Shown: piece after piece, positions 3-22,679 of the stretch
Layout of the letters: the number at the start of each line of letters is the position of its first letter
How positions within the stretch are numbered: position 1 is the stretch's first letter
Source: Minisyncoccota bacterium
Lineage (GTDB): Bacteria > Patescibacteriota > Minisyncoccia > Phycocordibacterales > JABAAK01
Reading direction: 5' to 3'
Assembly (NCBI GenBank): GCA_958295675.1
Contig: OY282360.1
Span: forward strand, 325,466 to 358,393
Length of the DNA: 32,928 nucleotides
Notes under the pieces: model-generated
What the model saw: only the letters and a program-made list of their open reading frames with translations
The model's database searches: none
Told to the model about the DNA's origin: nothing
Made by a program: the position numbers and the translations under genes

Positions 3-3000
3 GCAACTGATACCGTAACTCTGAAGGCCATAATGATTGATACCAACTCCGGCAACGCGCCGACATTGAAGGTGAAATATGGCACCGGCAGTGAGACATC
101 CCTGTCCGCGACCAGCACCGGCGGCACAGCAACAGTATCAGGATTTGGTCCGGGCGGGGCAACGAGCGGTGATACGACCAATTACACATTTTCTATTACA
201 GGATTTACAATGGAAGTGTCAAGAAGCGGGGGTACAGACGGTAAATTGTATAGATGTACCACATTTAGCGGTCCGAGTGTTACTGCCTCTGACATCTCTG
301 GTAGTGGGTGTAAAGACATTGGAGATTTGTCTGGAACCTCCGTTGAGACTGATGCCGTCCTTACCACCTCGGAATTTACAAACGTGCAGACCAGCGGCGG
401 TATCGTACTCGTGAAAACAAATGCAAGCGGCACGCCGGAAGCCCAACAGTTCTTCCCGGCGTTGCTTAACGCTAAAATATATACCTACACCGACACCATC
501 GCGAGCGGAGACAACGGTATTTTGGCGACGAAGATAACGGGGATTACCGACGCAGCGGGGAATAGCGGAACAGACGAAAGTGCATTCACAAATTTTCCAA
601 GAAACAACTTTCCTAGCCTCAACTACATCGCCGACACCACCGCGCCGACCGCGTCTGTAACGGTTGGGAATATCTCATACACCGGTGCAAACACCGTCAG
701 TAGTGTGAAGTATTTGAATGCGGGTGATCAGGTCTCGGTACCGGTTGTTTTTGCGAATGGTCCCATGAAAGCCGGCACTGCGATATCAGCATTCAAAAAT
801 GACAGTGATGACTCAACAGTAGCAACATCTAGTAATCCACTTGCTGATAATGATTCAGGTTTCAATGCTACATATGCAGTGAGTGCAGGACACAATATCG
901 CCGAGGATGACTTGCAATTTGATCTCACCAATGAAAGTTCAATAACTGACATTGCCGGCAACGCGTTGAGTACATTCACCATAGTGGACATTGACGATGT
1001 GGTGATTGACACCACGCCGCCTGATCTGGGTGTGGGCACGGTCGGTCTCCGTTCTACGGACGACAGCTGTGCTGACTTTGACGCCACCCCCGGCTGTGAC
1101 TTCGGTACCAATAGTGATGATGTGACTAATAACTATCAGAACTTAGAATTAAAGGTTGATCTTGGCACGGCGGACACGGTGAAACTGCACATCTACGAAG
1201 ATGATGGTGACAATGACAAATCAGATGACCTCACAGCACTTGACTCAGACGGCGACTACGACACGCTCACCGCGACCACGGTCAACACCGATGTGGACTA
1301 TGACTCCGGTGCCTCAGCGAATGCCGTGACCACCAAGTCCCTCTACATCCGCGCGGAGGACCGGGCGAATAACACCACTAACAGTGATACCTTTACGTTG
1401 ACCATTGACCGGCAGGCACCTTCTACGCCGACTGCCCCTGATCTGCATGCGGACACGGACTCATCCGGCGGGGACGGGACAAATGCTGACGACCTGACCA
1501 ATCACGCGACTGTAGTGTTTGACGTTACCGCGCATACCCGCGCGAGCCAGTGTCGGTTCGTGTATCAGGGCACGTATGCCGCAGCATCCGGCAATGCCTG
1601 TGTGCCGGCATCCGCGGATCACGATCATGACAGCGACGGTACCCCTACCGCGTACACCAACGCCGACCTCTACACCAACGCCACGGAACAGGAGGAGACC
1701 TTCAAGACCCGTGAGTACGACATCGCCGGCAACCATACCGACTCATCGGCAACCACCGTGCACTTTGACCGCAGTATCAGTGAAGCGCTCTTTGATTTGA
1801 AAAAAGGTTCGGACAGTGGGTACAGCGAAACGGACAATATTACCAATAAAAGCGCACCGACCGTCATGCTCAGCAGTTTGGAATCAAGCACCGCACCGAC
1901 GAGCGGCACGGGACAGGCGCGTGTTGAGGTGTACGCGTGGACACCTGCCTCAAGCTCCGACACCTCATTTTTGGACAGCAGCGGTGACGGACAGACCGCT
2001 GAGCTCGGCACCGCGCTGAGAACCATCGTGAACGCCACATCTGCCTCAATGGATCAGACCTTCGGCTTACAGTCAGACGGCGTGTACCGTATCGTTACCA
2101 AGCACACGGACGATGCCGGTAATGTGGCGTGGACATCAGCGCCGGCGACCAAGCTCGCGTACGATGCATCTGCTTCCTCGGGCTACGGCTTTGACGCGTC
2201 AACCGCGACCAATGTCATTGTTATTGACACCCAGAAGCCCGCGGCACCCGCGGCACCTGACATGACTCCCGTACTGGACACCTTCGGCGCAAACGGCAAC
2301 CTCGCGCGTGACGGAACGAACACCGACGACATCACCAGGAATCAGGACCTCGCGTTTCTGGTTGACTCATCGGTCCGTGACTTTGATGATGCAGCTGACC
2401 TCACCGGCGCGGCGCTCGCACGGGAACGCCACCACATCGCGCTGTGGGAGTGGGACACCGAGACCTTTGCATCCGGCACGACCGAGACCGCGGCGAGCGG
2501 ACAGAGTATCACGATTAACGGCGGTAGCAGAACGCACGCGCAGCCGGCACTCACCAGCACCGACGGCACCGCGACCAGCAACATCGCGGCAGCGACCGCT
2601 ATCACCAACGCCGGTTTTTCAGACAGCACCAGAAAGGGATCACTCTTCACCCACCGCTTTGCCGGTGCGGCAGTAAACACCACCGATGACTACTACATCG
2701 CCGCGAAACAGGTTGACGCCGCGGGGAACACCTCCGACTACGGCGATGCTACAACAGTGACTATTGACCGCGACCCGCCCCGCTCCCCGAGACAGGAGAT
2801 TCGGCTGCACCGGGCGACCGACACCGGCACCTCGGACACCGACGGCAGAACGACGAGCAGAACACCTATCTTTGCCGTGAAGTTCCCGAGAGAGAGCGCG
2901 GGTTCCGGTCCGGATCGGCAGGACGAGCATGCCCGCCACGGTGCCGACTACTATGAGATATGGTGGGATCCGGACGCAACGGACGGCATCAACGAAGCGG

Positions 3001-6000
3001 ATTTCGAGTACCCGTCCCGTTCCGGTCATGATGATCAGGCGTCCTACGGATGGATTGACCCGACAGTCACCGCCACGGCCAACAGCATCATTCCCGGCGC
3101 GACCGGCTACACCGCGTCTCTTTTGGACAACTATCAGGGAGCAACCGCTCTACTGGACGGTGTCTCCGTGCGGGTGCAGATGCAGAGCGCGCCGAATATC
3201 AATCAGGAGTACGCGTACCGGGTCGTCGCCGTTGACTATGCGGGTAACAGCAACTTAAGTTTACAAAACACCGTGTCCATTCCGACCGTTCTGCCGCCCA
3301 CACCGTCAAATCCGATACTGGCGGACGCGACCAACAGCGGTCTGAACAGTGACACGATTACCAACAACACCACGGTAACGGTGAACACCGCCTACGCGAA
3401 CCGAAGCGGCGCAGGCACCGAAGAGACCGCGGAGCGGCAGGGACAGGCGGCGCAGAATGTGCAGACCCTGCGGTTCACCGTCACCCCGCCGTCTGACAGT
3501 TCCCTGACCGCGCAGACCGTGGATCGCTCGCACAGCACCGTGGCGCCGACCGCATTGGCAGCCGCGGTGACTGACAACGGCTTCACCCTGCCGCTGGGAC
3601 ATGAGACCGGCGGTACCAACCAGAACTTCACGACCGGGTATACCTACGCCGGTGATTTTAATCTTCTGAGTATCTTCGGCGTCTCAGCCGACCATCTGCC
3701 GGACGGGGACTATACCTTCAGTGTCATCGCGCTGAATGCGGGGAATGAGCGGAGTAAACCGACAGTAACACCGCTCACCGTGACGCTTGATACCACCGAC
3801 CCGACGATCGGCACCGTGACGGACGGGACGACTGAGGGGAATGAGGTGGACGGTACCCGTCACGTAAAGGCAGGAGACACCGTGACCGTGCGGGTACCGC
3901 TCGTTGATGCGCATCAGCCGGCAACCGCGCCGACGGTACAGTTCCGCTTCGGTGACAGTGAGACCGATCGGAGTGCTACGGCAGGGGCGGTAATCCAAAC
4001 CCCTTCTGTTGACGGAACATTCAGGAACGACGGTACATATGAAAATAGGGTATGGCCAGCAGCATATCCTGCTAATACCCTTTCAATACAGCGCCAGTCC
4101 GGTGCGCAACATCGGATAACGGTGAGTATGGACCGGCAAAATGGTGCGGAGAATAGGATATATCTGTGTTCCTACCTTGCCGCAGCGGATGTATCCGGTC
4201 GCCTCACCGATATAATCGACGGTAATGGCGAGTATTGCAGCAACATTGGTGGTATCGGCAGCGGACCGAGCGGTACGATTGACTTCACGGTTACGCCGTC
4301 AATGATTGCGAACGGTGGTATTGTACTCGGAATATATAACAACCCTGCCAGTACAGTATATTATTGGAAGTGGTTTCCGATTGTTTCGCCAACCAGCGAC
4401 TCCCAAACCTACCCCTACACCTACGACATCCAGAGCGGAGACACCGGTGAGTTGAAATACAGGATTGCGGATGTAACGGACGGTGCGGCGAACAGTATAG
4501 ATGATCAGGACAGCTTCACCACGCTCAGCACGACTGTTGCCGACACCACTGCTCCGGACATCACCCTTATCCGTGACCGCGCGCATGACGCGAGTGATAA
4601 AGATGATACCGAGTACATCGCCACTGCCACTGACGCGAACTTCAGCCGGATAATGTCTAATGACAACACTACGGCAGGGAGCTGTACGAACGCGGCAACG
4701 CTGACCGGCTACACCGACTATGTGAACCCAAGCGCGAGTCCGCCGGTAACCGCAACGGCAATCACCGCGAATAACGCAAACGGACGATGTTTCATTGCTG
4801 TTGACCACGCGGGCAACCAGGCCGCCGACCATGCGGGCGACAGTGACAGTACTATCATTGTGGGTATCGGTAACTTTGAGGTGGTGGATGAGGACGACAC
4901 CGGCTCTGACAGTGATGACGAGATCACCTCGGACGACACACCGCGATTCGCCGGCACCACGGCACCGAATACGCCGGTGCGGATTGTGCTCACGGAAAAA
5001 ACGGAGGGAGTAGGGGAGACAGCACACGGACCTGCGACTACAGCAACACAGACGGCAGCTGGTGCGATACGCTTCGTAGACGGTGATACCGAGCAAACTG
5101 TGCTGCAACGATTCTTCCGATCTGTGGCACCCGGAGCGACCGTAACCTATGATGAAGCGACGAACACAGCAACCGTGACGAATGCGCCGAATATCGTGGG
5201 TGTTTCTAATCTCAAATATGCATATTACAGAACACCAGGTGATGGTAGCAATTCCGGTAGTATTACATTTTCTGCTATTACCATTTCTCTTGCAGCAGAC
5301 GGTCTGACCATGAACTTTGGTGGTGATGGTCTTGAAAGTTACATAACAAATTCACAATCAGGTCTGTCAACACAAGCGTCATTCTTTATCGGAACCATAA
5401 CCGTTATAGACGAATCAGTGTCAGTCACTTCGGACGCGTCCGGACAGTTCACCACACCTGCTATTGCAGCACTGACGGACGGCACGCACGCGCTGAAAGG
5501 GTACATCACGATCAACAGCGCGCGGTCAGGTCCATTCGCACTCGGCGATCTCGTGATTGACACCGAAGTGCCGGAACTCGCCTTCACGGACGATGTGAAC
5601 GAGGGACCGGTACAGAGCGACACGGTTGTGGTTACCATGACACCGAGCGGGGATACCTTTAACGGCTTTGCCTACTCGGACGATCGTAGCTGCGGCAGCG
5701 GCGACACCTACACCGGCAGCAGCACAACGCTCACCATTACCACTGAAGATGAAAACGGCAAGTATGTCTGCGCGAAAGCGACGGACACCGCGGGAAACAT
5801 CGGCTACTCACCGCCGTCAAGCACTACTGTGAATGTGCAGTATACGGTGAACATTGATGTTACTCCTCCGGTCGTGCAGGTCTTCAGAATCGGCAGTGGC
5901 GCCACCTCACAGTTTGTGGTCAGCGCGCAGGATGACAATGCACTCACCGCTATTTACAAAGACAATACCGCAAGCAGCTCCTGTACGACATCCGCATACT

Positions 6001-8951
6001 CGAATCCGCCCCTGGTTCCCGGCAGTTGGACATCCTACGACAATGCCATGCCCACAGCACTGACGGCTAACGATTCAAACGGACTCTGTGTGATATTTGC
6101 TGATGCGGCAGGGAACAAGGTAGCACAGCACATCACTGACGGCGGCACCTATCCGCTCGGTGTGGATGATTTCACCATCGTTACCGCTGACGACAGCGGT
6201 GGCAATGACGCGGATCGTGTGACAAACGACAGCACACCGCGCTTCACCGGCACCTCAGTACCGGGATCAGTCGGGCGGGTGGTGATTACCACCTCCTCCG
6301 CACCCGCGATTACGGCACCAAGCCCCAATCGTGTTATACATTCAAGTGGCTTTTCAGCGTGGACGGTTGCAACCACCTCGTTAGCGGCACAGACCGCCTC
6401 CGCGCAGTCGCTGACACTGACGCATAATGATAATAATCATGTTCGTCTGTGTCCGTACGATGCCGCCACATTTCCTGCCGCCCCTGCCAATATGCCGACC
6501 GGCCCGGCGGTAGCAGCGTATACGAATTGTGTACAGGTGTATACCAGCACAGTGGCTACTATTAACCCAAGTAGATCACGCACCTATTCGGTAACCCTCA
6601 ATCAGCAGATGGTGGATGCCGGTGCGGTGGTGGTGTATATATACCGTATTCACGCTGATGCACGCTTTGCTATAACAGGTGTTGCACACTTCGTACCATT
6701 ACTTATACCCGTTAATACAACCATCCCCATCACCGCCTCCGACTATGACCGGACGATGACCAATAAATTCACCACCGCGGCATCGTCGTCAATTCCGGAC
6801 GGCACCTACACGCCGAAAGGATACATTGACCTGACAGACAACAGTATTGACGATCCGGTCGGACCGTTTGACCTGCCGCAGATAACCATTGACACCGTGA
6901 GTCCGTCTCTCTCCGCTGATGATATATTTTTCACGGTAACTGGTAGTTCTAACGGTCACTTCAAATCCGGCGATACCGTACAGTTGCGGGGAGCGCAGGC
7001 GCTAGTGAGCGGCACTCCACCATATACCAATCTGTTCCAACTTCAGATGCTGGGACCAACAAGCAATGTGCGTCTGAATGAACAGGTGTATGACCCTGTA
7101 GTATCATTCGCGGGTCAATCGTTCACCGGCTGTACCGGCACGAGCAGTTCACCGTTTACCATTACCTGTACCGGCGATTCTTTCACACTCAGCAGTGACG
7201 CTGAGGAGGGTGTCGCATCGCTTGAAATCGTGACTGAAGACCTTGCCGGCAATGAGCTGCGTTATTCGGACTCACAATACTACAACACTGGTGCGGCAAG
7301 AGGGTACGATAATCCTTCAAGCATCATCATAGACAAAACAGCACCGACCTACACGCTTTCAATAGACAAGAGCATCGCTAAAGCGGAAGACACGGTGAGT
7401 ATAACCGTAGACGCTGAGGATGTAAACGGCGTATTGATCGGCACCACCCCCGCGGTAATCAGTGAAACAAACCCGCTTGTCGTCACCTTTGACGGAACAC
7501 AGTATAGTTTCAACACACTACCGGGATCATTCACCCATACCTTCTCCGCGACCGCCGCGACCGGACCGCGCACCATAACCGTCCCGACACTCTACGACCC
7601 GGCAGGCAACACCCTCGCGGGATTCAGCAGGGAGATGACCTTCCTGGACACCGGGGTGCCGAGTATTCGCGGATTCCAGTTTAATATCGCCGGTGGCATG
7701 CTTGCGGTATCAGCCGTCGCCGACAGGAACAACGACCCCTCACTGACCACCGATGAGACCATACGGTTCAGCTTTGCCGGCGCATGTGCCGAGTTCCCGG
7801 GATCACCGGACTTCACCGGAGATCCGCAGGAGGACAGTCAGCGGTACAATTTCAGCATCACCATCCCGGACGGTGTGTACGCGGCGAATACATGTCAGCT
7901 GATCGTCACCGATCAGGCAGGCAACGCATCCAGCGCGACCGATGAGAACGCTATCTTCCGGGTGCAGATTGACTCCACTGCCCGCAGACGCGGAGGCGGC
8001 GGAGGCGGAGGCGGTATCGGACTCGCCCGTTTCAGAGATTCACTCAATACTGATGAAGAAACAGGCGTTGCCGATGCACCGGCACCGGAAATCTCAGTTA
8101 TTCCACAGCGACCGACCTACACCCAGGGTGATCGGAATCCCGCCATCCGTGCCTTACAGGCGATACTCAACAGTAAAGGATTTACCGTCGCAGAGAGCGG
8201 ACCCGGCTCAGCAGGGCAGGAAACCGACTACTTCGGACCGGCAACGGAACGCGCGGTACGGGCATTCCAGGAAGCGAATGCGATACCCGTAACCGGTCTG
8301 CTTGACCATACAACACAGGTAGCACTCCTGCCGGAAGCGGACAGTGCCACAAAAACACAAATCATCGCGGCACTCAGAGAGGAGATAGCCCGGGTCACCG
8401 CGCGTATTAATGAACTACTCGCTCAGCAGGGAGCGCCGGCACCGGAAGAAACACCGCCCGCACCTCCTGCAGCACCACCGACAGCACCCGCGGCACAAGC
8501 ACCGACACCGTCACCGCTATCGTTGCCGACACCATTGCGAAGAACACACAGCGCGCCGCAATTCTTTTCCACGGACAGCGGTTCAGCAGCACCTCCCGCA
8601 GCACCCGCGCCTCCTGCAGCACCCGCAGCACCGCCTGCGCCTCCTGTAGCACCTCCGACAGCACCCGCGGCACAAGCACCGACACCGTCACCGCTAGCAC
8701 TGCCGACACCGAAGCGAAGAACACTCGGCGCGCCGCAATTCTCACCCACAGACAGCGCACCGACACCGCCCGCAGCACCGACACCGCCCGCGCCTCCTGC
8801 AGCAGCACCTGCACCTCCTACACCTCCTGTAGCAGCACCGACACCGCCTGCGGACGACAGGGAAGAGAGAGCAGCGCCGCCGCAACCGTTCTACAATGAA
8901 GATGCGACACAGCAGCGCAACCGCAGAACATTCAACCCGGGTGCCTTCTGA
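3..8951 (+). CDS. Giant Ig-like/cadherin-like surface protein with peptidoglycan-binding domain (5' end outside window)
   Basis: The reading frame is open to the left edge, and the residues before the first ATG (position 33) align with the interior of the second giant protein, so this gene is cut by the window rather than starting at 33. The visible 2982 residues are a chain of bacterial Ig-like modules, each closing with an 'AGN' loop and linked by 'DTTAP'-type joints. Asp-rich loops such as DDGDNDKSDD (near 1200) resemble calcium sites. Near the C terminus come a run of nine glycines (about 7993-8020), a PG_binding_1 domain (8139-8333, with FGPATERAVRAFQ), a short coiled coil (8346-8432) and a Pro/Ala-rich tail (8433-8850) containing two copies of a 'LPTPxRRT..APQF' block. 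No LPXTG motif or C-terminal membrane segment is present, so attachment to the wall through the PG-binding domain is an inference. The likely role is a cell-surface adhesin or stalk; the ligand is unknown. Confidence 0.9.
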   Translation, partial: ATDTVTLKAIMIDTNSGNAPTLKVKYGTGSETSLSATSTGGTATVSGFGPGGATSGDTTNYTFSITGFTMEVSRSGGTDGKLYRCTTFSGPSVTASDISGSGCKDIGDLSGTSVETDAVLTTSEFTNVQTSGGIVLVKTNASGTPEAQQFFPALLNAKIYTYTDTIASGDNGILATKITGITDAAGNSGTDESAFTNFPRNNFPSLNYIADTTAPTASVTVGNISYTGANTVSSVKYLNAGDQVSVPVVFANGPMKAGTAISAFKNDSDDSTVATSSNPLADNDSGFNATYAVSAGHNIAEDDLQFDLTNESSITDIAGNALSTFTIVDIDDVVIDTTPPDLGVGTVGLRSTDDSCADFDATPGCDFGTNSDDVTNNYQNLELKVDLGTADTVKLHIYEDDGDNDKSDDLTALDSDGDYDTLTATTVNTDVDYDSGASANAVTTKSLYIRAEDRANNTTNSDTFTLTIDRQAPSTPTAPDLHADTDSSGGDGTNADDLTNHATVVFDVTAHTRASQCRFVYQGTYAAASGNACVPASADHDHDSDGTPTAYTNADLYTNATEQEETFKTREYDIAGNHTDSSATTVHFDRSISEALFDLKKGSDSGYSETDNITNKSAPTVMLSSLESSTAPTSGTGQARVEVYAWTPASSSDTSFLDSSGDGQTAELGTALRTIVNATSASMDQTFGLQSDGVYRIVTKHTDDAGNVAWTSAPATKLAYDASASSGYGFDASTATNVIVIDTQKPAAPAAPDMTPVLDTFGANGNLARDGTNTDDITRNQDLAFLVDSSVRDFDDAADLTGAALARERHHIALWEWDTETFASGTTETAASGQSITINGGSRTHAQPALTSTDGTATSNIAAATAITNAGFSDSTRKGSLFTHRFAGAAVNTTDDYYIAAKQVDAAGNTSDYGDATTVTIDRDPPRSPRQEIRLHRATDTGTSDTDGRTTSRTPIFAVKFPRESAGSGPDRQDEHARHGADYYEIWWDPDATDGINEADFEYPSRSGHDDQASYGWIDPTVTATANSIIPGATGYTASLLDNYQGATALLDGVSVRVQMQSAPNINQEYAYRVVAVDYAGNSNLSLQNTVSIPTVLPPTPSNPILADATNSGLNSDTITNNTTVTVNTAYANRSGAGTEETAERQGQAAQNVQTLRFTVTPPSDSSLTAQTVDRSHSTVAPTALAAAVTDNGFTLPLGHETGGTNQNFTTGYTYAGDFNLLSIFGVSADHLPDGDYTFSVIALNAGNERSKPTVTPLTVTLDTTDPTIGTVTDGTTEGNEVDGTRHVKAGDTVTVRVPLVDAHQPATAPTVQFRFGDSETDRSATAGAVIQTPSVDGTFRNDGTYENRVWPAAYPANTLSIQRQSGAQHRITVSMDRQNGAENRIYLCSYLAAADVSGRLTDIIDGNGEYCSNIGGIGSGPSGTIDFTVTPSMIANGGIVLGIYNNPASTVYYWKWFPIVSPTSDSQTYPYTYDIQSGDTGELKYRIADVTDGAANSIDDQDSFTTLSTTVADTTAPDITLIRDRAHDASDKDDTEYIATATDANFSRIMSNDNTTAGSCTNAATLTGYTDYVNPSASPPVTATAITANNANGRCFIAVDHAGNQAADHAGDSDSTIIVGIGNFEVVDEDDTGSDSDDEITSDDTPRFAGTTAPNTPVRIVLTEKTEGVGETAHGPATTATQTAAGAIRFVDGDTEQTVLQRFFRSVAPGATVTYDEATNTATVTNAPNIVGVSNLKYAYYRTPGDGSNSGSITFSAITISLAADGLTMNFGGDGLESYITNSQSGLSTQASFFIGTITVIDESVSVTSDASGQFTTPAIAALTDGTHALKGYITINSARSGPFALGDLVIDTEVPELAFTDDVNEGPVQSDTVVVTMTPSGDTFNGFAYSDDRSCGSGDTYTGSSTTLTITTEDENGKYVCAKATDTAGNIGYSPPSSTTVNVQYTVNIDVTPPVVQVFRIGSGATSQFVVSAQDDNALTAIYKDNTASSSCTTSAYSNPPLVPGSWTSYDNAMPTALTANDSNGLCVIFADAAGNKVAQHITDGGTYPLGVDDFTIVTADDSGGNDADRVTNDSTPRFTGTSVPGSVGRVVITTSSAPAITAPSPNRVIHSSGFSAWTVATTSLAAQTASAQSLTLTHNDNNHVRLCPYDAATFPAAPANMPTGPAVAAYTNCVQVYTSTVATINPSRSRTYSVTLNQQMVDAGAVVVYIYRIHADARFAITGVAHFVPLLIPVNTTIPITASDYDRTMTNKFTTAASSSIPDGTYTPKGYIDLTDNSIDDPVGPFDLPQITIDTVSPSLSADDIFFTVTGSSNGHFKSGDTVQLRGAQALVSGTPPYTNLFQLQMLGPTSNVRLNEQVYDPVVSFAGQSFTGCTGTSSSPFTITCTGDSFTLSSDAEEGVASLEIVTEDLAGNELRYSDSQYYNTGAARGYDNPSSIIIDKTAPTYTLSIDKSIAKAEDTVSITVDAEDVNGVLIGTTPAVISETNPLVVTFDGTQYSFNTLPGSFTHTFSATAATGPRTITVPTLYDPAGNTLAGFSREMTFLDTGVPSIRGFQFNIAGGMLAVSAVADRNNDPSLTTDETIRFSFAGACAEFPGSPDFTGDPQEDSQRYNFSITIPDGVYAANTCQLIVTDQAGNASSATDENAIFRVQIDSTARRRGGGGGGGGIGLARFRDSLNTDEETGVADAPAPEISVIPQRPTYTQGDRNPAIRALQAILNSKGFTVAESGPGSAGQETDYFGPATERAVRAFQEANAIPVTGLLDHTTQVALLPEADSATKTQIIAALREEIARVTARINELLAQQGAPAPEETPPAPPAAPPTAPAAQAPTPSPLSLPTPLRRTHSAPQFFSTDSGSAAPPAAPAPPAAPAAPPAPPVAPPTAPAAQAPTPSPLALPTPKRRTLGAPQFSPTDSAPTPPAAPTPPAPPAAAPAPPTPPVAAPTPPADDREERAAPPQPFYNEDATQQRNRRTFNPGAF
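91..478 (+). other. Variable module site 1, type A (two-cysteine) in giant gene 1
   Basis: Encodes a type A segment: 'LYRC', a second Cys 18 residues later, then an 'F-x(5)-GGIVLV' strand. It sits between conserved flanks 'VKYGTG' and 'YTDTIASGDNG'. The matching site in giant gene 2 is also type A but highly diverged. Confidence 0.7.
3991..4406 (+). other. Variable module site 2, type A in giant gene 1
   Basis: Segment between the conserved 'TDRSATAGAV' and 'YPYTYDIQSGDTG'. It carries the type A signature: 'IYLC', then Cys, then 'VTPSMIANGGIVLGIYNN'. The same position in giant gene 2 holds an unrelated type B segment. Confidence 0.8.
4997..5414 (+). other. Variable module site 3, type B in giant gene 1
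   Basis: Type B segment with 'TVLQRFFRSVAPGATVTYDE' and a closing 'ASFFIGTITVID'. Flanks are 'VRIVLTE' and 'SVSVTSD'. The copy in giant gene 2 is also type B and shares its first half, but the second half has diverged. Confidence 0.7.
6274..6731 (+). other. Variable module site 4, type A in giant gene 1
   Basis: Type A segment with 'VRLCPYDAA', a second Cys about 26 residues on, and 'TLNQQMVDAGAVVVYIYR'. It lies between 'TGTSVPGSVG' and 'ITASDYDRTMTN'. Giant gene 2 has type B here. Confidence 0.8.
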
Positions 8952-8995
8952 TACGGAAAAAGCAGCAGAACAGTAGAAAATTATAAAAAAAGGGC

Positions 8996-9031
8996 AGAGC
9001 AGGGAAGAGAGACACCTCTCTTCCTTGCTCT
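8996..9031 (+). terminator. Hairpin after giant gene 1
   Basis: A 15-bp stem (8997-9011 with 9016-9030) and 4-nt loop, 45 bases after the stop. The clearest T-run is on the opposite strand (A-tract at 8984-8991). On the + strand the hairpin is followed only by TTGTCGTA, so it may be a weak or two-way terminator. Confidence 0.6.
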
Positions 9032-9155
9032 TGTCGTATAAAAATAAAACAAAAGGAGCAGTAAAAAATCCTGAAAGCGGAAAGGAGTGCGTGCGGTCAG
9101 CGTTCAATTAAATAAAAAAGTTATCAACACGGATAAAAATAAACAAGCGCAGTAT

Positions 9156-9165
9156 CAAGTATACT
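9156..9165 (+). promoter_or_regulatory. Possible -10 element for giant gene 2
   Basis: TATACT at 9160-9165, 41 bases before the ATG. No convincing -35 hexamer lies 16-18 bases upstream, so this is a weak call. The intergenic stretch 9032-9205 holds nothing else recognisable. Confidence 0.3.
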
Positions 9166-9205
9166 GAAATTATTACTATTAAAAAGGGTTAATACATTTT
9201 TTTGT

Positions 9206-12200
9206 ATGCATATAAGTCAAAGTATATTCTTGTCACGGTTTGTGGCAGTGTTTGTCTCAATGGCAATGATTTTTTCTGTAACGATGATTCCTGTTTCTTC
9301 CGCGCAGGTGCCTCCTGAGACACCGGCGGCAAATGACGGACAGCAGGGAACCGAAGATGATTCTTCGGAAGAGCAAACAGGCGAAACACAGTTGCCGGAC
9401 GATGAAGATACTTCAAACACCCAACCCGAAACACCGGCAGAGGATGACGCGACCCTCTCGGCACTGACCCTTTCGGACGATATGTCGTTCAACGAACCGT
9501 TTGACGCAGCGACAACCGCCTACACCGCGGATGTGGCGAATACTATTGAAACAGTAACGGTCAGCGCGACACCTGTAAACAGCAATGCGACTGTTGTCTA
9601 CACCGACACCACAGATGCCGACACAGACACGGTGGGACAGCAGGTCACGCTCACAGAAGGAGAGAACACCGTAACGATAATAGTCACGGCACAGGACGGA
9701 GTAACCGTGCAGACCTATACCCTAACGATCACCAGAGCGGCGGAAGAGCCGAGTGAACCAGAGGATGACGATACACAACCTGCAAATGAGCCGGCAGACG
9801 ACGAAGAGGAACCTGTAGAGGAAAATGAGGAATCAGAAGAGGAAGAAGAACCTGTAGAGGAAGAGGAGGAATCAAACGAAGATGGAGAGGAAGAAAGTGA
9901 AGAGGAAGAGGAGACACCGACACCGACGGTCTCCCTCAGCGGTCTCACGGTCTCGGACACCGACCTTAACGAAACCTTTGATCCTGCCGTAACAAGTTAC
10001 ACCGCGGATGTAGCGAATACTATTGAAAATGTGACAGTCACACCTGCTGCAGACGATACAATGACCGTGGCATTTACTGACACCACGGATACCGACACGG
10101 AAGAAGAGGGACACCAGGTCGTGCTCACGGAAGGGGAGAACACTGTAACGATAACGGTAACCGCAGAGGACGGAGTAACGGTGCAGACCTATACGCTAAC
10201 CATCACCAGAGCGGCTGAAGAGCCAAGTGAACCCGAGGATGACAATACGCAACCTGCAAATGAGCCGGCAGACGACGAAGAAGAACCTGTAGAGGAAGAG
10301 GAAGAATCAAGCGAAGAGGAAGAGGAAGAAAGTGAAGAGGAAAACGAAGAACAGGAAACACCGGCAGAGGATGATGCGACCCTCTCAGCACTGACCCTTT
10401 CGGACGATAGGTCGTTCAACGAACCGTTTGACGCGACGACAACCGCCTACACCGCGGATGTTGCGCATGATGTCGCGGAGGTAACCGTCAGCGCGACAGC
10501 AACCAATAGCGATGCGACTGTTGTCTACGATCCGACCGATGCCGACACAGATACAGTGGGACATCAGGTCATGCTCACGGAAGGAGAGAACACCGTAACG
10601 ATAACGGTCACCACACAGGATGGGGTAACCATGCAAACCTATATGCTAACCATCACCAGAACGGCTGAAGAGCCGAGTGAACCCGAGGATGATGATACGC
10701 AACCTGCTAATGAGCCGGCGGACGACGAAGAGGAACCTGTAGAGGAAGAGGAGGAATCAGAAGAAGAGGAAGAATCAAACGAAGATGGAGAGGAAGAAAG
10801 TGAAGAGGAAAACGAAGAACAGGAAGCAACGCCGACGGTAGCACTCAGCGGTCTCACGGTCTCAGACACCAATCTTAACGAACCATTTGATCCTGCCGTT
10901 ACAACCTACACCGCCGATGTGGCGAATACTATTGAAAATGTGACGGTTACACCGACCGCAGACGATACAATGACCGTGGCATTCACCGACACCACGGATG
11001 CCGACACAGAAGAGGATGGACAGCAGGTCAATCTCACGGAAGGAGAAAACACCGTAACGATAACGGTAACCGCAGAGGACGGGGTAACGGTGCAAACCTA
11101 TACGCTCACCATCACTAGAGCGGTGGAAGAGGAAGAGCCAAGTGAACCCGAGGACGACGATGCCGCAGAGCCGGCGGACGACGAAGAGGAAGAAACACCG
11201 GAGCCAGTTATGGAAAGCGTACCGGAGCCGACCGTTGAAGTAGTGGCACCGCCACAACCACAGGCACAACGGCAGCAGGCGCAGCTTCCCGATGACGACA
11301 CCTCGGACACGCAGGCAGCACCGACATCCGCATTCACCACCTTTAAGATTAAGTCAGACACGACACATGACACTGGTGTGTCGCAAACAGATAATATAAC
11401 AAAGAAAGCCAACCCAACATTTGTAGTTGAGCATACCACCTCATTCGGTCCGCCTGACGGTACCAGCGACCATTATCTTACCCTGCGAAAAAAAAATAGT
11501 GCGTGTCCCGCAGCAGTGCCGACGGCAGCTACTAATGGAACACTTAATTCGGCCGGATGGAGTTCGTCAATCAATAAATTTCTCACCGCAGGAACTTCAT
11601 ATACCAGCATAGAACTCGCTTTTCTTACTAATTTTTCCGCCGGAACTCGCTGTATATTGGCACATTATACCCAAGGATCGGCATACACACCTGTAACAGC
11701 AACATACAAGATGCTGGAAATCACCATAGACACCACCGCCCCATCAGCACCGACACTCGCCCTCCACGACCCGTCCGCAACTCCCGCCGATGACTCAACC
11801 CCGACATTCCGTCTCACCGTGGAGAACGGTGCTGCAGTGTCGCTGTATAAAGCAGCATCCTGTGCGGGCACCGCGGTAGCAACAGGCACCGCCAGTAGCA
11901 CAAGCATTGATCTCACCTCTTCTGCAGTTGCTAACGGCTCCTACACTTTCTCCGCAAAACAGGAAGATAAAGCGGGCAACGCAAGTGCCTGTTCCACCGG
12001 TGTCGCGTATGAATACCAACAACCGACATCAGCAGCTCCAAGCAGCATAAACCTCCAAGATGCCTCCGACACCGGAACGGATGACGACAACATCACTGCT
12101 GACCACACTGCGCCGGTCATAGAGTTCACTATAGTATCGGGCGCGACCATTACCGCCCGCTACCGCAAATCAGGAGGGACATACACTGACATAGTAGCGG

Positions 12201-15200
12201 GGAAAATCACCGCGTCCGGAACGGCGGGTACCGTCACACTGCCGGACCTCACGGGAGCGACCCGTGACGGTGACTACAATGTGGAGATAACGCAGACGGA
12301 AAGCGGGAAAGCCGCAACTGCCGCCACATATACCTTCACACTGGACACGACGGCACCATCTATCACCACTGTCGATTTGAGCACTGCGGCGCCGTTTAAC
12401 TCGGGTGATCGGTATATAAACAATGCTGAGAAAGCAGGCACAGGTACTTTAGTTGGTCCCACTGCTGTGACTGATGCTAATCATGCCAGTGTCACATCGA
12501 GTTTTGCCGTTATCAGGTCAGGTGCGGCATGTGATAGTTCCACTAGTGGTTTTGATATACGGGCAAACACCACCGCTGCGGATGCCGCAGCGGATGGTGC
12601 ATATAAGATTTGCTTCCGCGCGACTGACCCAGCAGGGAATATTGGATATGCTGCGAGTACTGAGATATTTACCCGCGACACCACTGCGCCGACTTTTGCT
12701 ATCTCCACGACAAGCAGTCAAGAAAACGGAGCAACATACAGCGATGATGTGTATCTGAACGCTGCTGACACGGTAACGCTGAATGTGACGATGACCGATG
12801 CCAATGTAAACGCACCGACCTTGAATGTGCAATACGGCAGCGGCACCGGTGCTGCTGTACCTAATCCTGTCGGTACAAAAACGGCAACAACGATTACTAT
12901 CGGTACGCTCGGCGCGAGAGCAGGATTTGCGAAAGATAATAGCACCCTCACCGCTTCACAAGTTACCAACAACAATAGAGAGTACATTAGGTTTACTATT
13001 ACTCCAGTGTCCGGCTTTGCTCTTCCCGTAGGTACGATGTATGTGTGTCCGGTGTCTGCTCTCGCCGATACCACACCGGCAGCCACTGGCTGTACATCCT
13101 TAGGTAATACGCCCTTGCTCCAAACTAATCCTCTAGATGAAGATTTTGAGGTAACAAGTGCGAATATGGCAGAGATAAACGGCGGCGTGGTCTTTATGAT
13201 TGTTTCGGGTGGTGCGAGAGTAGTTAGACAGGTTGTGCCGGTTACTATCACTACCACAAACAGCTATGCCTACACCGACACCATCGCGAGCGGGGACAAC
13301 GGTATTTTAAAAACAAAGATAACGGGGATTACTGACGCGGCGGGGAATGCGGCGACCGATCAGGCATCGTTCGCGAACTACGACATTGACGGCACAAGCG
13401 GGGACAACTACATCGCCGACACCACCGCGCCGACCGCGTCTGTAACGGTTGGGAATATCTCATACACCGGTGCAAACACCGTCAGTAGTGTGAAGTACCT
13501 GAACGCGGGTGATGAGGTCTCGGTACCGGTTGTTTTTGCGAACGGTCCCATGAAAGCTAATAACGATGTGGCATCAGCATTCAAAGATGACAGTGATGAC
13601 TCAACAGTAGTAACATATGGTAATGCAATTGCTGATAATGATTCAGGTATTGATGTTATATACACAGTGAGTGCAGGACACAATATCGCCGAGGATGACT
13701 TGCAATTTGATCTCACCAATGAAAGTTCAATAACTGACATTGCCGGCAACGCGTTGAGTGCATTTACCATAGTTGACATTGACGATGTGGTGATTGACAC
13801 CACACCGCCCGCGCTGGATGTGGACACGGTCGGACTTCGTTCTGCGGACGACAGCTGTGCTGACTTTGACGGCACCTCCGGCTGTGACTTCGGTACCAAT
13901 AGCGATGATATTACTAACAACTATGAAAACTTGGAGCTTGAAGTGGATCTTGACACGGCGGACACGGTGAAACTGCACATCTATTTAGATGATGGTGACA
14001 ATGACAAATCAGATGACCTCACAGCGCTTGACTCAGACGGCGACTACGATACGCTCACGGCGACCACGGTCAACACCGATGTGGACTATGACTCCGGTGC
14101 CTCAGCAAATGCCGTTACTACCAAGAAACTCTACATCCGAGCGGAAGACCGGGCGAATAACACCGCCAACAGTGACACCTTCACGTTGACCATTGACCGA
14201 CAGGCACCCACCGCGCCCACCGCCCCTGATCTGCATGCGGACACGGACTCATCCGGCGGGGACGGTACGACCTCAGACGATCTGACCAATCACGCGACCG
14301 TAGTGTTTGATGTTGCAACGCATACCCGAACAACCCAGTGTCGTTTCGTGTACGAGGGTGCCTATGCCGCAGCGGCAGCCAATGCCTGTGTGCCGGCATC
14401 CACGGATCACGATCACGACAGCGACGGTACCCCTACCGCGTACGCGAACGCCGACCTCTACACCAACGCCACGGAACAGGAGGAGACCTTCAAGACCCGT
14501 GAGTACGACATCGCCGGCAACCATACCGACTCATCGGCAACTACCGTGCACTTTGACCGCAGTATCAGTGAAGCCCTCTTTGATTTAAAACCAGGTTCGG
14601 ACAGCGGGTACAGCAACACGGACAATATTACCAATGACAACGCCCCGACTATTACACTCAGCAGTTTGGAATCAAGCACCGCACCGACGAGCGGCACGGG
14701 ACAGGCGCGCGTTGAGGTGTACGCGTGGACCCCTGCCTCAAGCTCCGACACCTCATTTTTGGACAGCAGCGGTGACGGACAGACCGCTGAGCTCGGCACC
14801 GCGCTGAGAACCATCGTAAACGCGACCTCGGCCTCAATGGATCAGACCTTCGGCTCACAGTCAGACGGTGTGTACCGTATCGTCACCAAGCACACGGACG
14901 ATGCCGGTAATGTGGCGTGGACATCAGCGCCGGCAACCAAGCTCGCGTACGATGCGACCGCATCCTCGGGCTACGGCTTTGACGCGTCAACCGCGACCAA
15001 TGTGCTTATCATTGACACCCAGAAGCCCGCGGCACCCGCGGCACCTGACATGACTCCCGTACTGGACACCTTCGGCGCAAACGGCAACCTCGCGCGTGAC
15101 GGAACGAACACCGACGACATCACCAGGAATCAGGACCTCGCGTTTCTGGTTGACTCATCGGTCCGTGACTTTAACGATGCAGCTGACCTCACCGGCGCGG

Positions 15201-18200
15201 CGCTCGCACGGGAACGCCACCACATCGCGCTGTGGGAGTGGGACACCGAGACCTTTGCATCCGGCACGACCGAGACCGCGGCGAGCGGACAGAGTATCAC
15301 GATTAACGGCGGTAGCAGAACGCACACGCAGCCGGCGCTCACCAGCACCGACGGCACCGCGACCAGCAACATCGCGGGTACGACGGCTATCACCAACGCC
15401 GGTTTTGCAGACAGCACCAGAAAGGGATCACTCTTCACCCACCGCTTTGCCGGTGCGGCAGTAAACACCACCGATGACTACTACATCGCCGCGAAGCAGG
15501 TTGACGCCGCGGGGAACACCTCCGACTACGGTGATGCTACAACAGTGACCATTGACCGCGACCCGCCCCGCTCCCCGAGACAGGAGATTCGGCTGCACCG
15601 GGCGACCGACACCGGCACCTCGGACACCGACGGCAGAACGACGAGCAGAACGCCTATCTTTGCCGTGAAGTTCCCGAGAGAGAGCGCGGGTTCCGGTCCG
15701 GATCGGCAGGATGAGCATGCCCGCCACGGTGCCGACTACTATGAGATATGGTGGGATCCGGACGCAACGGACGGTATCAACGAAGCGGATTTCGAGTACC
15801 CGTCCCGTCCCGGCAATGATGATCAGGCGTCCTACGGCTGGATTGACCCGACAGTCACCGCCACGGCCAACAGCATCATTCCCGGCGCGACCGGCTACAC
15901 CGCGTCGCTGCTGGACAACTATCAGGGATCAACCGCTCTACTGGACGGTGTCTCCGTGCGGGTGCAGATGCAGAGCGCGCCGAATATCAATCAGGAGTAC
16001 GCGTACCGCGTCGTCGCCGTTGACTATGCGGGTAACAGCAACCTCAGTTTACAAAACACCGTGTCCATTCCGACCGTCCTGCCGCCCACACCGTCAAATC
16101 CGATACTGGCGGACGCGACCAACAGCGGTCTGAACAGTGACACGATTACCAACAACACCACGGTAACGGTGAACACCGCCTACGCGAACCGAAGCGGCGC
16201 AGGCACCGAAGAGACCGCGGAGCGGCAGGGACAGGCGGCACAGAATGTGCAGACCCTGCGGTTCACCGTCACCCCGCCGACTGACAGCACCCTGACCGCG
16301 AAGACCGTGGATCGTTCGCACAGCACCGTGGCGCCGACCGCATTGGCAGCCGCGGTGACTGACAACGGCTTTACCTTACCGTTAGGACATGAGACCGGCG
16401 GTACCAACCAGAACTTCACGACAGGGTATACCTACGCCGGCGATTTTAATCTTGCGTCCATCTTCGGCGTCTCAGCCGACCATCTGCCGGACGGGGACTA
16501 TACCTTCAGTGTCATCGCGCTCAACGCGGGGAATGAGCGGAGCAAACCGACGGTAACACCGCTCACCGTGACGCTTGATACCACCGACCCGACTATCGGC
16601 ACCGTGACGGACGGGACGACTGAGGGGAATGTGGTAGACGGCACCCGGCACCTCAAGGCAGGAGACACCGTGACCGTGCAGGTACCGCTCATTGATGCGC
16701 ACCAGCCGGCGACCGCGCCGACGGTGCACTTCCGCTTCGGTGACAGTGAGACCGATCGGAGTGCCACGGCGGGGGCGGTGGTAACGACGGCGACGAGGAG
16801 AGTAGGGCTTCAATCTGGCGGACCAACTATAGCAGTTCAAATTGCGGCTGGGGGTGTTCAGATAGATCCCACTGCAGCATCGGCACAATCAGTCCTGGGG
16901 TCCTATTTCAGAGCATTTGATCCAGATGCTGTTGTCACGGCATCAGCAGGCAATCTCAGTGTAACTTCTTCGGTCATTGCGGGTGCGACATTGCATGATA
17001 TAAAAATAATACACAATTACACTGATAGTGGCGCTTTCTGGGATTCAGATGATGTTCCAACAACATTTAGCAGTGTCACGCAGAACGGTAATGTGCTAAC
17101 CGCGACATACGAGAGTATTTTTGACGATCTTGTTGCTAGGACACTCGTGGGTAATTCGAATATCACTTCATTCTTGACTGGTAGCATAACTTTACCGATA
17201 CCACCGACCTACCCCTACACCTACGACATCCAGAGCGGAGACACCGGTGAGTTGAAGTATAAAATTACGAATGTGACGGACGGCGCGGCGAACAGCATAG
17301 ATGATCAGGACAGTTTCACGACACTCAGCACTACTGTTGCCGACACGACTGCTCCGGACATCACCCTCATCCGAGACCGCGCGCATGACGCGAGTGATAA
17401 AGATGATACCGAGTACATTGCTACTGCTCTTGACGCGAACTTCAATCGTATTGTTTCCAAAGACAGCGTCGGAACGGGGAGCTGTACGAACGCGGCAACG
17501 CTGACCGGCTACACCGACTATGTGAATCCGAGCGCGAGTCCGCCGGTAACCGCTACGGCAATCACCGCGAACAACGCAAACGGACGATGTTTCATTGCCG
17601 TTGACCACGCGGGTAACCAAGCCGCCGACCATGCGGGCGACAGCGACAGTACTATCATCGTCGGTATCGGTAATTTTGAGGTGGTGGATGAGGATGACAC
17701 CGGCTCTGACAGTGATGACGAGATCACCTCGGACGACACACCGCGATTCGCCGGCACCACGGCGCCGAATACGCCGGTGCGGATTGTGCTCACGGAAAGC
17801 ACGGAGCAGATAGGACAAACAGCAGGAAGCGGTACAACGGTAACATCACAGACCGCCGCGGGCGGGATACGCGTGGTAAGCGGTGATACTGCAGAAAAAG
17901 TACTGCAAAGATTCTTCCGATCTGTGGTACCCGGGGCGACCGTTACCTATGATGAAACGACGGGTACGGCAACAGTAACCAACGCACCGAATATCGTGGG
18001 TGTTTCTGATATCACACATCTGTCTTACTTCATACCGGGTAGTACTAACGCTAGTTCTAGTGGGCTTACTTACAGTGCTGCTCTTACAGCAGACGGTCTC
18101 ACCCTTACTTTTCTTTCAAATGGAGCTGATTTTGAAAGCGTTGTAACAACTGCGCTGTCACTACTGACAACACGGGCATACTTCCTTGCCGGGGAAATAA

Positions 18201-21200
18201 TCACTATAGATGCATCAGTGTCAGTCACTTCGGATAGTGCTGGACAGTTCACCACACCTGCCGCGCCAGCGTTTGATGACGGTACGCACGCGCTGAAAGG
18301 GTACATCACCATCAACAGCGCGCGGTCAGGTCCGTTCGCGCTCGGCGATCTCGTGATTGACACCGAAGCGCCGGAACTCGCCTTCACGGACGATGTGAAC
18401 GAGGGACCGGTACAGAGCGACACGGTTGTGGTTACCATGACACCGAGCGGGGATACCTTTAACGGCTTTGCCTACTCGGACGATCGTAACTGCGGCAGCG
18501 GCGACACCTACACCGGCAGCAGCACAACGCTCACCATTACTACTGAGGATGAAAACGGCAAGTATGTCTGCGCGAAAGCGACGGACACCGCGGGAAACAT
18601 CGGCTACTCACCGCCGTCAAGCACTACTGTGAATGTGCAGTATACGGTGAACATTGATGTTACTCCTCCGGTCGTGCAGGTCTTCAGGATCGGCAGCGGC
18701 GCAACCTCGCAGTTTGTCGTTACTGCGCAGGATACCAATGCACTCACCGCTATTTACAAAGACAATACCGCTTCTAGTGCATGTACGACAGCCGCGTATC
18801 CGAATCCGCCCGCAGCTCCCGCCAGTTGGACATCCTACGACAATGCCATGCCCACAGCACTGACGGCTGACGACTCAAACGGACTCTGTGTGATATTTGC
18901 TGATGCAGCAGGGAACAAGGTAGCACAGCACATTACTGACGGCGGCACCTATCCGCTCGGCGTGGATGATTTCACCATCGTTACCGCTGACGACAGCGGT
19001 GGCAATGACGCGGATCGTGTGACAAACGACAGCACACCGCGCTTCACCGGTACCTCGGTACCCGGCTCAGTCGGTACTATTGTCATTGACAGGGAAGTGG
19101 GAGAGACGACAACAGCCAGTACCACTATTTCAGATCAGACGGGAGCCACCACCCCAGCACCCTCTGCTCTAGTGAGCGGAGATGACGCGCAGTCAGTATT
19201 AAGTCGTTTCTTCCAAAGGGTTGACCCTTCAGCAACAGTCACGGTAAGCGGTGATTCAATTACCGTCACGTCATCCGTCATCACCGGTTTCACAGATCTG
19301 AAATTTGCTTCATATACCACTTCCGACGGTGTGAAGAGTAGTTCCGATGTTCCTGTAACAACAGCTTCGACCATATCCGCAACTGGCGCGACTAGCACCG
19401 GCGGAAGCAATCTGGGAACCATCATAACAGCACAGCCACTGGGAACGATATCACACTTCCTGGTCGGTACTGTTGAACAGAAGATTGCCGAAATCACCGC
19501 CTCCGACTATGACCGGACGATGACCAACACATTCACCACCGCGGCAGCAGCATCAATTCCGGACGGCACCTACACACCGAAGGGATACATTGACCTGACA
19601 GACAACAATATTGACGATCCGGTCGGACCGTTTGACTTGCCGCAGATAACCATTGACACGGTAGTTCCATTCGTTACCGCTGATGCTACATTTTTCACGG
19701 TGAGGGTGCCCGGATCTGATAACTACTTCAAGCCAGGCGATACGGTATTCTTTCAAGGAACTGAACGACAGGTATACGGCACCCCGCCATATACCAATGT
19801 GTTCCTGCCGAGACCGTCAAGCAGTGTGCATTTGAACGAACAGGTGTATGACCCGGTAGTATCATTCGCGGGACAGTCATTCACCGGCTGTACCGGCAGC
19901 AGTAGCTCACCGTTTACCATTACCTGTACCGGCACTTCCTTCACACTCAGCAGTGACGCTGAAGAGGGTGTCGCATCGCTTGAAATCGTGACCGAAGACC
20001 TTGCCGGCAATGAGTGGCGTTATTCGGACTCACAATACTACAACACTGGTGCGGCAAGAGGGTACGATAATCCTTCAAGTATCATCATAGACAAAACAGC
20101 ACCGACCTACACGCTTTCAATAGACAAGAGCATCGCCAAAGCGGAAGACACGGTGAGCATAACTGTGGATGCAGAGGATGTAAACGGCGTATTAATAGGC
20201 ACCACCCCCGCGGTGATCAGTGAAACAAACCCGCTTGTCGTCACCTTTGACGGAACACAGTATAGTTTCAACACACTACCGGGATCATTCACCCATACCT
20301 TCTCCGCGACCGCCGCGACCGGACCGCGCACCATAACCGTCCCGACACTCTACGACCCGGCAGGCAACATCCTCGCGGGATTCAGCAGGGAAATGACCTT
20401 CCTGGATACCGGGGTGCCGAGTATTCGCGGATTCCATTTCAGCACTGCTGCCGGCATGCTTGCGGTATCAGCCGTCGCCGACAGGAACAACGATCCCTCA
20501 CTGACCACCGATGAGACCATACGGTTCAGCTTTGCCGGCGCGTGTGCTGAGTTCCCGGGATCACCGGACTTCACCGGAGACCCGCAGGAGGACAGTCAGC
20601 GGTACAACTTCAGCATTACTATCCCGGACGGTGTGTACGCGGCGAATACATGTCAGCTGATCGTCACCGATCAGGCAGGCAACGCATCCAGCGCGACCGA
20701 TGAGAACGCTATCTTCCGGGTGCAGATTGACTCCACTGCCCGCAGACGCGGAGGCGGCGGAGGCGGAGGCGGTATCGGACTCGCCCGTTTCAGAGATTCA
20801 CTCAATACTGATGAGGAAACAGGCGTTGCCGATGCACCGGCACCGGAGATTTCAGTCACTCCACAACGACCGACCTACACCCAGGGTGATCGGAATCCTG
20901 CCATTCGCGCTCTACAGGCAATACTCAACAGTAAAGGATTTACCGTCGCAGAGAGCGGACCCGGCTCAGCAGGACAGGAAACTGACTACTTCGGACCGGC
21001 AACGGAACGCGCGGTACGGGCATTCCAGGAAGCGAATAGTATACCAGTCACCGGTCTGCTTGACCATGCGACACAGGTAGCACTATTACCAGAAGCGGAC
21101 AGTGCCACAAAAACACAAATCATCGCGGCACTCAGAGAGGAGATAGCCCGGGTAACCGCGCGTATCAACGAGTTACTCGCTCAGCAGGGAGCGGAAGAAA

Positions 21201-21707: not shown

Positions 21708-21748
21708 AACATTTGGATGTTCTTTTAACTCACACCGAGGAGGTTGCC

Positions 21749-22414
21749 ATGCGTGCACATTATTTGAGCAAATCACCGGAAACCCTGACCAGACTTGCTG
21801 CGGATGAGGATGAGAGCATACGACGGGAAGTCGCCTTACACCCAAACACGCCTCAGGAGGTGCTTGCGCGCCTTGCCGGAGACACGGATGAGTATGTGCG
21901 GATGAATGTTGGTAGTAATAAAAATACACCTCCTGAAATCCTCACCCTGCTTGCAAAAGATCAAGATTGGATTGTGCGGTTGGCTGTCGCCGATAATCCG
22001 AACACGCCTCAGGAGGTGCTTATACGCCTTGCCGGAGACACGAATGAGCGTGTGCGCCAGAATGTTGCCAAGCATAAAAATACACCTCCTGAAACCCTCA
22101 CCCTGCTTGCAAAAGATCAGGATAAGGTTGTGCAATGGGCTGTTGTGCGATGGGCTGTTGCCGCAAACAGGAACACACCGAAAGAAGTTCTCACCGAGCT
22201 TGCCAAAGACAAGGATGTAGGTGTGCGAATAATTGTCGCCATGAATCCAAACACACCTGTAGAAGTGCTTGAAATGCTTGCCAAGGATAAAAACGCAAAT
22301 GTGCGAGTGTTTCTCATCACGAATAAAAATCTACCGCTGGAAATCTTCAGACAGCTTGCCGAGGAGGATCAAGACGAATCTGTGCGGCGGGTTGCTGCCA
22401 AGATAAAGCGGTGA
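21749..22414 (+). CDS. Leucine-rich-repeat-variant (LRV) protein A1
   Basis: 221 residues made almost wholly of eight repeats of about 24-26 residues with the LRV pattern 'NTPxEVLxxLAxDxDxxVRxxVAxxP' (PF01816-like, right-handed alpha/3-10 solenoid). The start is set by GAGGAGG at 21737-21743, five bases before the ATG; an in-frame ATG at 21713 is upstream of this site and close to the -10, so it is rejected. There is no signal peptide or membrane segment, so the product is probably cytoplasmic. Repeat 5 has a 5-residue duplication from a 15-bp direct repeat (22128-22157). The Azotobacter LRV protein carries an N-terminal cysteine cluster for an Fe-S centre, but this protein has no cysteine. 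A binding or scaffold role is likely from fold; the partner is unknown. Its own promoter-like -10 and terminator make it a single-gene unit. Confidence 0.88.
   Translation: MRAHYLSKSPETLTRLAADEDESIRREVALHPNTPQEVLARLAGDTDEYVRMNVGSNKNTPPEILTLLAKDQDWIVRLAVADNPNTPQEVLIRLAGDTNERVRQNVAKHKNTPPETLTLLAKDQDKVVQWAVVRWAVAANRNTPKEVLTELAKDKDVGVRIIVAMNPNTPVEVLEMLAKDKNANVRVFLITNKNLPLEIFRQLAEEDQDESVRRVAAKIKR
22128..22157 (+). repeat. 15-bp tandem microduplication inside LRV gene A1
   Basis: Two adjacent 15-base units that differ at one base, adding five residues to repeat 5. The same event is present in A2 (23059-23088), so it predates the gene duplication. Confidence 0.8.
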
Positions 22415-22421
22415 ACCATCT

Positions 22422-22462
22422 ACACTCCGAACATATCACACATGTTCGGAGTGTATTTTTTA
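22422..22462 (+). terminator. Terminator of LRV gene A1
   Basis: Perfect 13-bp stem (22422-22434 with 22442-22454), 7-nt loop, then ATTTTTTAT. It begins 8 bases after the stop codon. Confidence 0.9.
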
Positions 22463-22536
22463 TATATTTTTCTTTGTATGATATACTATTACAGGAAGTT
22501 TTTTAACCAACAAACTGACTGAAAGGAGAGTCACTG

Positions 22537-22659
22537 ATGAACTTCTTAAAAAGAGTCCAGGTGCCGCCGGAGCTCACGGATCAGAACGCATCTCCGGATG
22601 TCCTCGCACAGTATGAATACATAACAATAAGGTATAATAACATTTGGATGTTCTTTTAA
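22537..22659 (+). pseudogene. Truncated N-terminal remnant of LRV gene C
   Basis: ATG at 22537 opens a 40-codon frame starting MNFLKR and running to 'SPDVLAQY'. It matches the first 26 residues of the intact gene at 23471, together with the upstream intergenic sequence and AAAGGAG site. After position 22612 the similarity stops and the frame runs through ten unrelated bases into the promoter region of LRV gene A2, ending at TAA 22657. This is the breakpoint of a tandem duplication that copied A plus the start of C. It may still be translated as a 40-residue peptide, but no function is expected. Confidence 0.8.
22633..22638 (+). promoter_or_regulatory. -10 element for LRV gene A2
   Basis: TATAAT carried over by the duplication. 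The sequence upstream of it now comes from the truncated C gene, so any -35 differs from that of A1. Confidence 0.45.
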
Positions 22660-22679
22660 CTCACACCGAGGAGGTTGCC

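Follow-up and report, generated by a model that had tools for sequence, protein, structure and literature searches.

Two adjacent giant genes of a Minisyncoccota bacterium encode paralogous surface proteins in which long modules appear to sit as guests inside split immunoglobulin (Ig)-like domains, and at two of the four matching sites one of the paralogues has probably had its guest replaced by an unrelated type. What is new here is the recognition of the modules as guests that split Ig-like domains, as do the ligand-binding heads of repeats-in-toxin (RTX) adhesins. The genes lie in a stretch of 32,928 nucleotides (G000:C1:325466-358393, referred to as the window) of a genome consisting of a single contig of 724,510 bases (0.72 Mb), in an order whose listed genomes span 0.3-1.0 Mb; this small size, taken with a gene for ribosomal protein L27, suggests a patescibacterium. 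Gene 1 begins upstream of the window, which holds its last 2982 codons. In window coordinates, the pair and its C-terminal domains are placed as follows:

3..8951, forward strand: gene 1, 3' part (full gene G000:C1:322018-334416, 4132 amino acids (aa)), with matches to Big_13 and PG_binding_1
9206..21562, forward strand: gene 2, tandem paralogue of gene 1, 4118 aa
8136..8327, forward strand: PG_binding_1 of gene 1 (E 6.6e-13)
20894..21085, forward strand: PG_binding_1 of gene 2 (E 2e-13)

The pair is taken to be a tandem duplication of the whole gene because the 118 base pairs (bp) that end at the start of each copy are 97.5% identical. Both proteins have a hydrophobic N terminus, read as a putative signal peptide, and Pfam matches above the gathering score comprise four stretches of Cadherin-like and up to six of Big_13, with PG_binding_1 near the C terminus of each. 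These features point to giant, secreted, cell-wall-associated adhesins in which a long Ig-like stalk is combined with four cadherin-like domains, a signal-like N terminus and, near the C terminus, a domain that binds peptidoglycan. A probability of roughly 60% is attached to the favoured reading in its entirety, that is the adhesin pair together with the split Ig-like hosts, the replacement of guests and the recombination route proposed below.

Each module, as judged from alignments, interrupts a bacterial Ig-like domain within a hairpin loop. The guests (about 125-155 residues) and the hosts and related domains used in the comparisons are:

90..479, forward strand: site 1, gene 1, type A-like guest (alignment profile; weak family support)
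12845..13264, forward strand: site 1, gene 2, type A-like guest (alignment profile; weak family support)
3990..4406, forward strand: site 2, gene 1, type A guest (sharp borders; leave-one-out E 1.5e-4)
16778..17206, forward strand: site 2, gene 2, type B guest (sharp borders; leave-one-out E 4e-9)
5007..5477, forward strand: site 3, gene 1, type B guest (profile, ratio of nonsynonymous to synonymous divergence (dN/dS), leave-one-out; structure modelled)
17807..18277, forward strand: site 3, gene 2, type B guest (profile, dN/dS, leave-one-out)
6273..6728, forward strand: site 4, gene 1, type A guest (sharp borders; leave-one-out E 3e-3)
19073..19492, forward strand: site 4, gene 2, type B guest (sharp borders; leave-one-out E 7e-18)
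3783..4559, forward strand: split Ig-like host of site 2, gene 1, guest included (aligned with empty domains)
16571..17359, forward strand: split Ig-like host of site 2, gene 2, guest included (aligned with empty domains)
4860..5582, forward strand: region with the split Big_13 host of site 3, gene 1 (Big_13 34.7 bits whole, 47.3 bits with the guest removed)
6150..6872, forward strand: region with the split Big_13 host of site 4, gene 1 (Big_13 34.1 bits over profile positions 8-49 whole, 43.7 bits over 8-78 with the guest removed)
633..1022, forward strand: related Ig-like domain of gene 1, guest-free (host alignment)

At sites 3 and 4 of gene 1, the Big_13 match becomes stronger and longer once the guest is cut out. 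The host of sites 1 and 2 is another type of Ig-like domain, distinct from Big_13, and its two halves, once joined, align with guest-free domains of the giant pair, of the upstream gene and of a genome of another genus in the same family (G006); the insertion point falls between the '..APTLxVxYGxG' and 'YTYTxxIxSGDNG' strands. Since the Big_13 match extends without the guest, and filled and empty hosts align, the module is best described as a hairpin-loop guest that can be absent. The G006 genome encodes one protein with two filled host domains (type A) and one empty one, and a third genus (G001) has a host-domain match with, on reading its sequence, short loops only at the insertion point.

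The sequence-only reading had sorted the modules into two types, with A/A at site 1, A/B at site 2, B/B at site 3 and A/B at site 4 (gene 1/gene 2), a scheme that is broadly borne out: type B forms a solid family, since profiles built with one member left out find each of its 4 members again (E 4e-9 to 6e-27), but type A is loose and its site-1 members were not recovered. At site 1 the type A label is based on a C..C...GG motif and weak pairwise scores; this motif, defined after the data were seen, matches four of the six type A modules, compared with an average of 0.012 matches each time the four proteins are shuffled. No similarity between types A and B was found by profile comparison, and by this measure the two are unrelated. 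The type B guest of site 3, gene 1, was modelled alone, with good confidence, as an alpha/beta domain (predicted local distance difference test (pLDDT) score 80.3, predicted template modelling score 0.77); Foldseek gave no match to the model at E<=0.001 in PDB (573 at E<=10) or BFVD (582 at E<=10), and the best VIA-align Z was 3.6. On this model the fold is left unassigned, the absence of fold matches being no demonstration of a new fold. A C2-like beta sandwich considered for type A (best Z 9.7 over residues 86-211) was set aside, the model being too weak, and sequence matches in PDB (best E 0.02 for type A, to antibody light chains, and 0.19 for type B) were not trusted.

Divergence along the pair was profiled on a codon alignment of the full-length proteins with a two-state model. 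The scaffold around sites 2-4 is 91-95% identical at the nucleotide (nt) level in blocks of 50 codons or more, and gapped identity falls to 38% in the site 2 block (3990-4406 / 16778-17206) and to 37% in the site 4 block (6273-6728 / 19073-19492). Ungapped identity over 150 nt outside versus 90 nt inside the module border is 0.91/0.29, 0.91/0.26, 0.96/0.36 and 0.93/0.23 at the four edges of these two sites. The step is milder at site 3 (5007-5477 / 17807-18277; 0.95/0.62 and 0.97/0.69), where both genes carry guests of one module type with 59-60% aa identity. Site 1 closes a block of about 655 residues that is diverged throughout (gene-1 residues 655-1309), so that its left flank is not conserved; the gene-2 part of the block is:

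11324..12844, forward strand: gene-2 part of the long divergent block preceding site 1 (alignment profile, dN/dS)

The profile is therefore not smooth, and the jump at module borders that the sequence-only reading expected is found in the sharp edges of sites 2 and 4. Its observation of modules between matching flanks at four fixed sites stands at these two and, with milder edges, at site 3, and falls at site 1, which ends a divergent block; likewise, the near-identical surrounding scaffold is real around sites 2-4 and not to the left of site 1. Within that block, gene-1 residues 655-1179 have a nonsynonymous divergence (dN) of 0.52 and a synonymous divergence (dS) of 1.47. These roughly 525 residues belong to the Ig-like stalk and have diverged like the modules though they hold no guest. 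Smaller divergent patches also occur outside the four sites; one of them, 6894-7061 / 19658-19819, covers about 55 residues of the Ig-like domain after site 4 (proportion of synonymous differences (pS) 0.54) and could be a fifth variable loop of smaller size.

Replacement of whole exposed domains is supported at sites 2 and 4 because the unrelated types A and B lie there between flanks that are 91-96% identical. At site 3, dS is 0.57 and dN/dS 0.61, compared with 0.15-0.33 and 0.12-0.21 in the scaffold blocks, and the pS of 0.40 (confidence interval 0.32-0.49; scaffold blocks 0.14-0.27) lies above all 190 overlapping 150-codon scaffold windows (maximum 0.33). Because synonymous change is raised there as well, the two site-3 guests probably share an older ancestor than the scaffold around them, and fast divergence alone is unlikely. 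Along the scaffold, synonymous differences occur in clusters (variance/mean 1.87 versus 0.87, with none of 2000 permutations as high; longest run without a synonymous difference 103 codons versus 46), a pattern that would arise if conversion made stretches of both copies alike. Replacement or diversification of the modules faster than their surroundings, as had been suggested, applies as replacement at sites 2 and 4, and scaffold homogenisation may contribute as much to the contrast between module and scaffold as rapid change of the modules does.

Shuffling of cassettes among the sites of this genome, the further suggestion of the sequence-only reading, finds no support. Type B guests at different sites share 28-39% aa identity, and cross-site DNA matches beyond the shared flanks were limited to chance-level runs of 13-23 nt. 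The profile searches of the genome (A1 and A2, four matches each) found all their matches within the giant pair and no spare module copy; a fifth type A match (A4, C1:272844, E 0.0056) was rejected as an Ig-like stretch without a guest. Recent shuffling within the genome is not supported since the identity between modules of different sites does not exceed 39% and spare copies were not detected. Nor does composition single the modules out as foreign. Their G+C content at third codon positions (GC3) is 0.37-0.50, compared with 0.65-0.70 in the scaffold blocks adjoining sites 2-4, and ordinary genes of the region, mostly at 0.32-0.51, match the modules; the scaffold is the outlier, reaching 0.6-0.78 in its middle part in both genes. 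Conversion-driven GC enrichment is not clear either, because the near-identical N-terminal parts of the pair have a GC3 of about 0.5.

Relatives elsewhere are few. The host-domain profile matched 4 of 387 genomes (the own genome, G006, G001 and, by profile alone, G163), and the scaffold alone was found in two of the eight genomes of the family, weakly in G006; no scaffold relative was detected in genome contigs, with the G006 protein also used as query, or in viral contigs. The type B profile matched the own genome only, among 397 genomes of the order and 196 of the phylum, and nothing in viral contigs, and the gene-2 site-2 guest as query had no match in phages or plasmids. In the phylum, type A was likewise matched in the own genome only (1 of 196). 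In the order, the first type A profile was confined to the own genome (1 of 397), and a type A core profile, which already contained the G006 guests, matched 5 of 397 at E<=0.05: the own genome, G006 and three weak matches (E 0.005-0.03) that were not accepted, one of which (G066) reads as an amidotransferase-like protein. At site 2, type A is probably the ancestral state because the gene 1 guest and its host are both nearest to the same pair in G006: the best match of the guest is the second of the guests in G006 (22.9 bits), and the domain that holds this second guest is also the G006 host most similar to that of gene 1 (48%).

Several points weigh against the favoured reading. The guest-removal test with Big_13 covered sites 3 and 4 of gene 1, and the site-2 host has no Pfam match even when guest-free. 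Type A is by these analyses a loose group: full-length leave-one-out profiles recover four of six members, missing both site-1 modules; the cores alone place four of six, two of these at E<0.01; and the type A model (236 residues) is of low confidence (mean pLDDT 48). Divergence extends beyond the guests, as site 1 and residues 655-1179 attest, and uneven codon constraint could be a partial cause of the synonymous clustering. The exchange of guests is itself deduced from a comparison of two paralogues.

Of the competing explanations, the one that deserves most attention, though it is doubtful, is an old duplication in which the guests and residues 655-1179 had already diverged or been replaced before conversion homogenised most of the scaffold, so that conversion would end at the sharp module borders because homology is lacking beyond them, and recent exchange need not be invoked. 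It would account for the saturation of the guest-free block 655-1179, for the unevenness of scaffold dS between blocks and for the clustering of synonymous differences, but the A/B pairs at sites 2 and 4 still demand replacement at some time, and the similarity of the 118 bp upstream of the genes, like that of most of the guest-free domain directly following site 1, is on the level of the scaffold. Accelerated point divergence of exposed domains under positive selection, without replacement, is improbable: the homologous site-3 guests have the high dN/dS that it predicts, yet their pS exceeds that of every scaffold window, and the unrelatedness of types A and B makes it unlikely for sites 2 and 4 from the outset.

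An assembly chimera of strain variants is less probable again. Two near-identical 12.4-kb repeats are hard to assemble, but both reading frames are intact over 12.4 kb with a scaffold dN/dS of 0.12-0.21, and the independent G006 genome has type A guests at the same host position. The least credible explanation is programmed diversification through retroelement mutagenesis, invertible segments or silent cassettes. The genome does hold one reverse transcriptase, a single RVT_1 match at C1:24630-25562, but it is retron-type (RT_II-A / St85-like, below the NCBIfam cut-off) and about 300 kb away; no reverse transcriptase of the diversity-generating retroelement type was found in the genome, where template and variable repeats were not searched. 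Module borders lack inverted repeats, of the repeats of at least 16 nt in 3700-7000 and 16500-19700 no pair encloses a module on both sides, and the genome has no further module copy.

Under the favoured reading of adhesins with replaced guests, the guest of one gene copy would have been replaced by an unrelated type at sites 2 and 4, likely through homologous recombination or gene conversion with crossover in the conserved host domains, the presumed donor being an allele, so far unsampled, from another strain or species. Purifying selection together with conversion between the copies would keep the scaffold alike, and a single cell would as a result carry two stalks with different heads. The guests are most likely ligand-binding heads, a role suggested by the likeness of their layout to split-domain RTX adhesins, and their replacement probably changes what the cell sticks to. 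If so, the module borders delimit the parts of a giant adhesin that likely determine its specificity, and this in a tiny genome, at a time when the attachment of small-genome bacteria to partner cells is poorly understood. A more tentative extension holds that the host domains are fixed sockets, in which unrelated heads, including type B, are exchanged as units between the alleles of a population, altering attachment on the same stalk; were this true, a bacterium with few genes could alter its attachment target with the stalk unchanged. Heads might also be found from sequence by a simple rule: where paralogues or relatives are compared, an Ig-like domain with a guest in one of them, and with no guest or a different one in the other, would mark a candidate.

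Directly upstream of gene 1, C1:317592-321794 encodes a 1400-aa protein that has Big_13, PG_binding_1 and domains resembling the hosts but lacking a guest; it may be a small relative of the giant pair. Further upstream of the window, C1:279602-316048 holds consecutive giant genes whose signal-bearing products have GLUG-like repeats and a common N-terminal leader, and among these C1:295997-298825 has fn3 above the cut-off and Glug just below it. Directly downstream of the pair, window positions 21713-28385 carry tandem LRV/HEAT-repeat families (two near-copies of 233 aa and three of 306-316 aa).

Split Ig-like domains of RTX adhesins are reportedly also treated by Graham et al. (2024, Proteins), listed alongside the adhesins AhLap and FrhA. 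In the reports on AhLap (PMC12077191) and FrhA (PMC10865825), ligand-binding domains project from split Ig-like domains, and the giant pair shares with these adhesins a giant repetitive surface protein in which an Ig-like domain is interrupted by a second domain. It differs in the C-terminal PG_binding_1, in having four guest sites per protein and in a tandem gene pair that carries different guests at the same sites. The pair is not classed as an RTX adhesin because RTX repeats were not found: no Pfam family of RTX calcium-binding nonapeptide repeats matched at E<=0.1 (gene 1 in two overlapping pieces; gene 2). Among titles and abstracts of the open-licence literature, no report of guest exchange in split-domain adhesins was recognised. 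In host-attached Patescibacteria, on archaea, Ig-like and peptidoglycan-binding proteins are described as highly expressed (PMC10936435), which fits an attachment role for the giant pair. A hypervariable gene of a gracilibacterium (PMC6851277) is likewise a variable surface-protein gene of a reduced-genome bacterium, but a tripeptide repeat varies there almost only at synonymous sites, whereas whole domains differ between the paralogues described here. The biofilm-associated protein (BAP) variants of Acinetobacter (PMC4647330) are similarly giant Ig-like surface proteins with module differences, in their case between strains; it is whole tandem repeats and the C-terminal region that vary in BAP, whereas in the giant pair the differences lie in guests inside fixed hosts and between paralogues.

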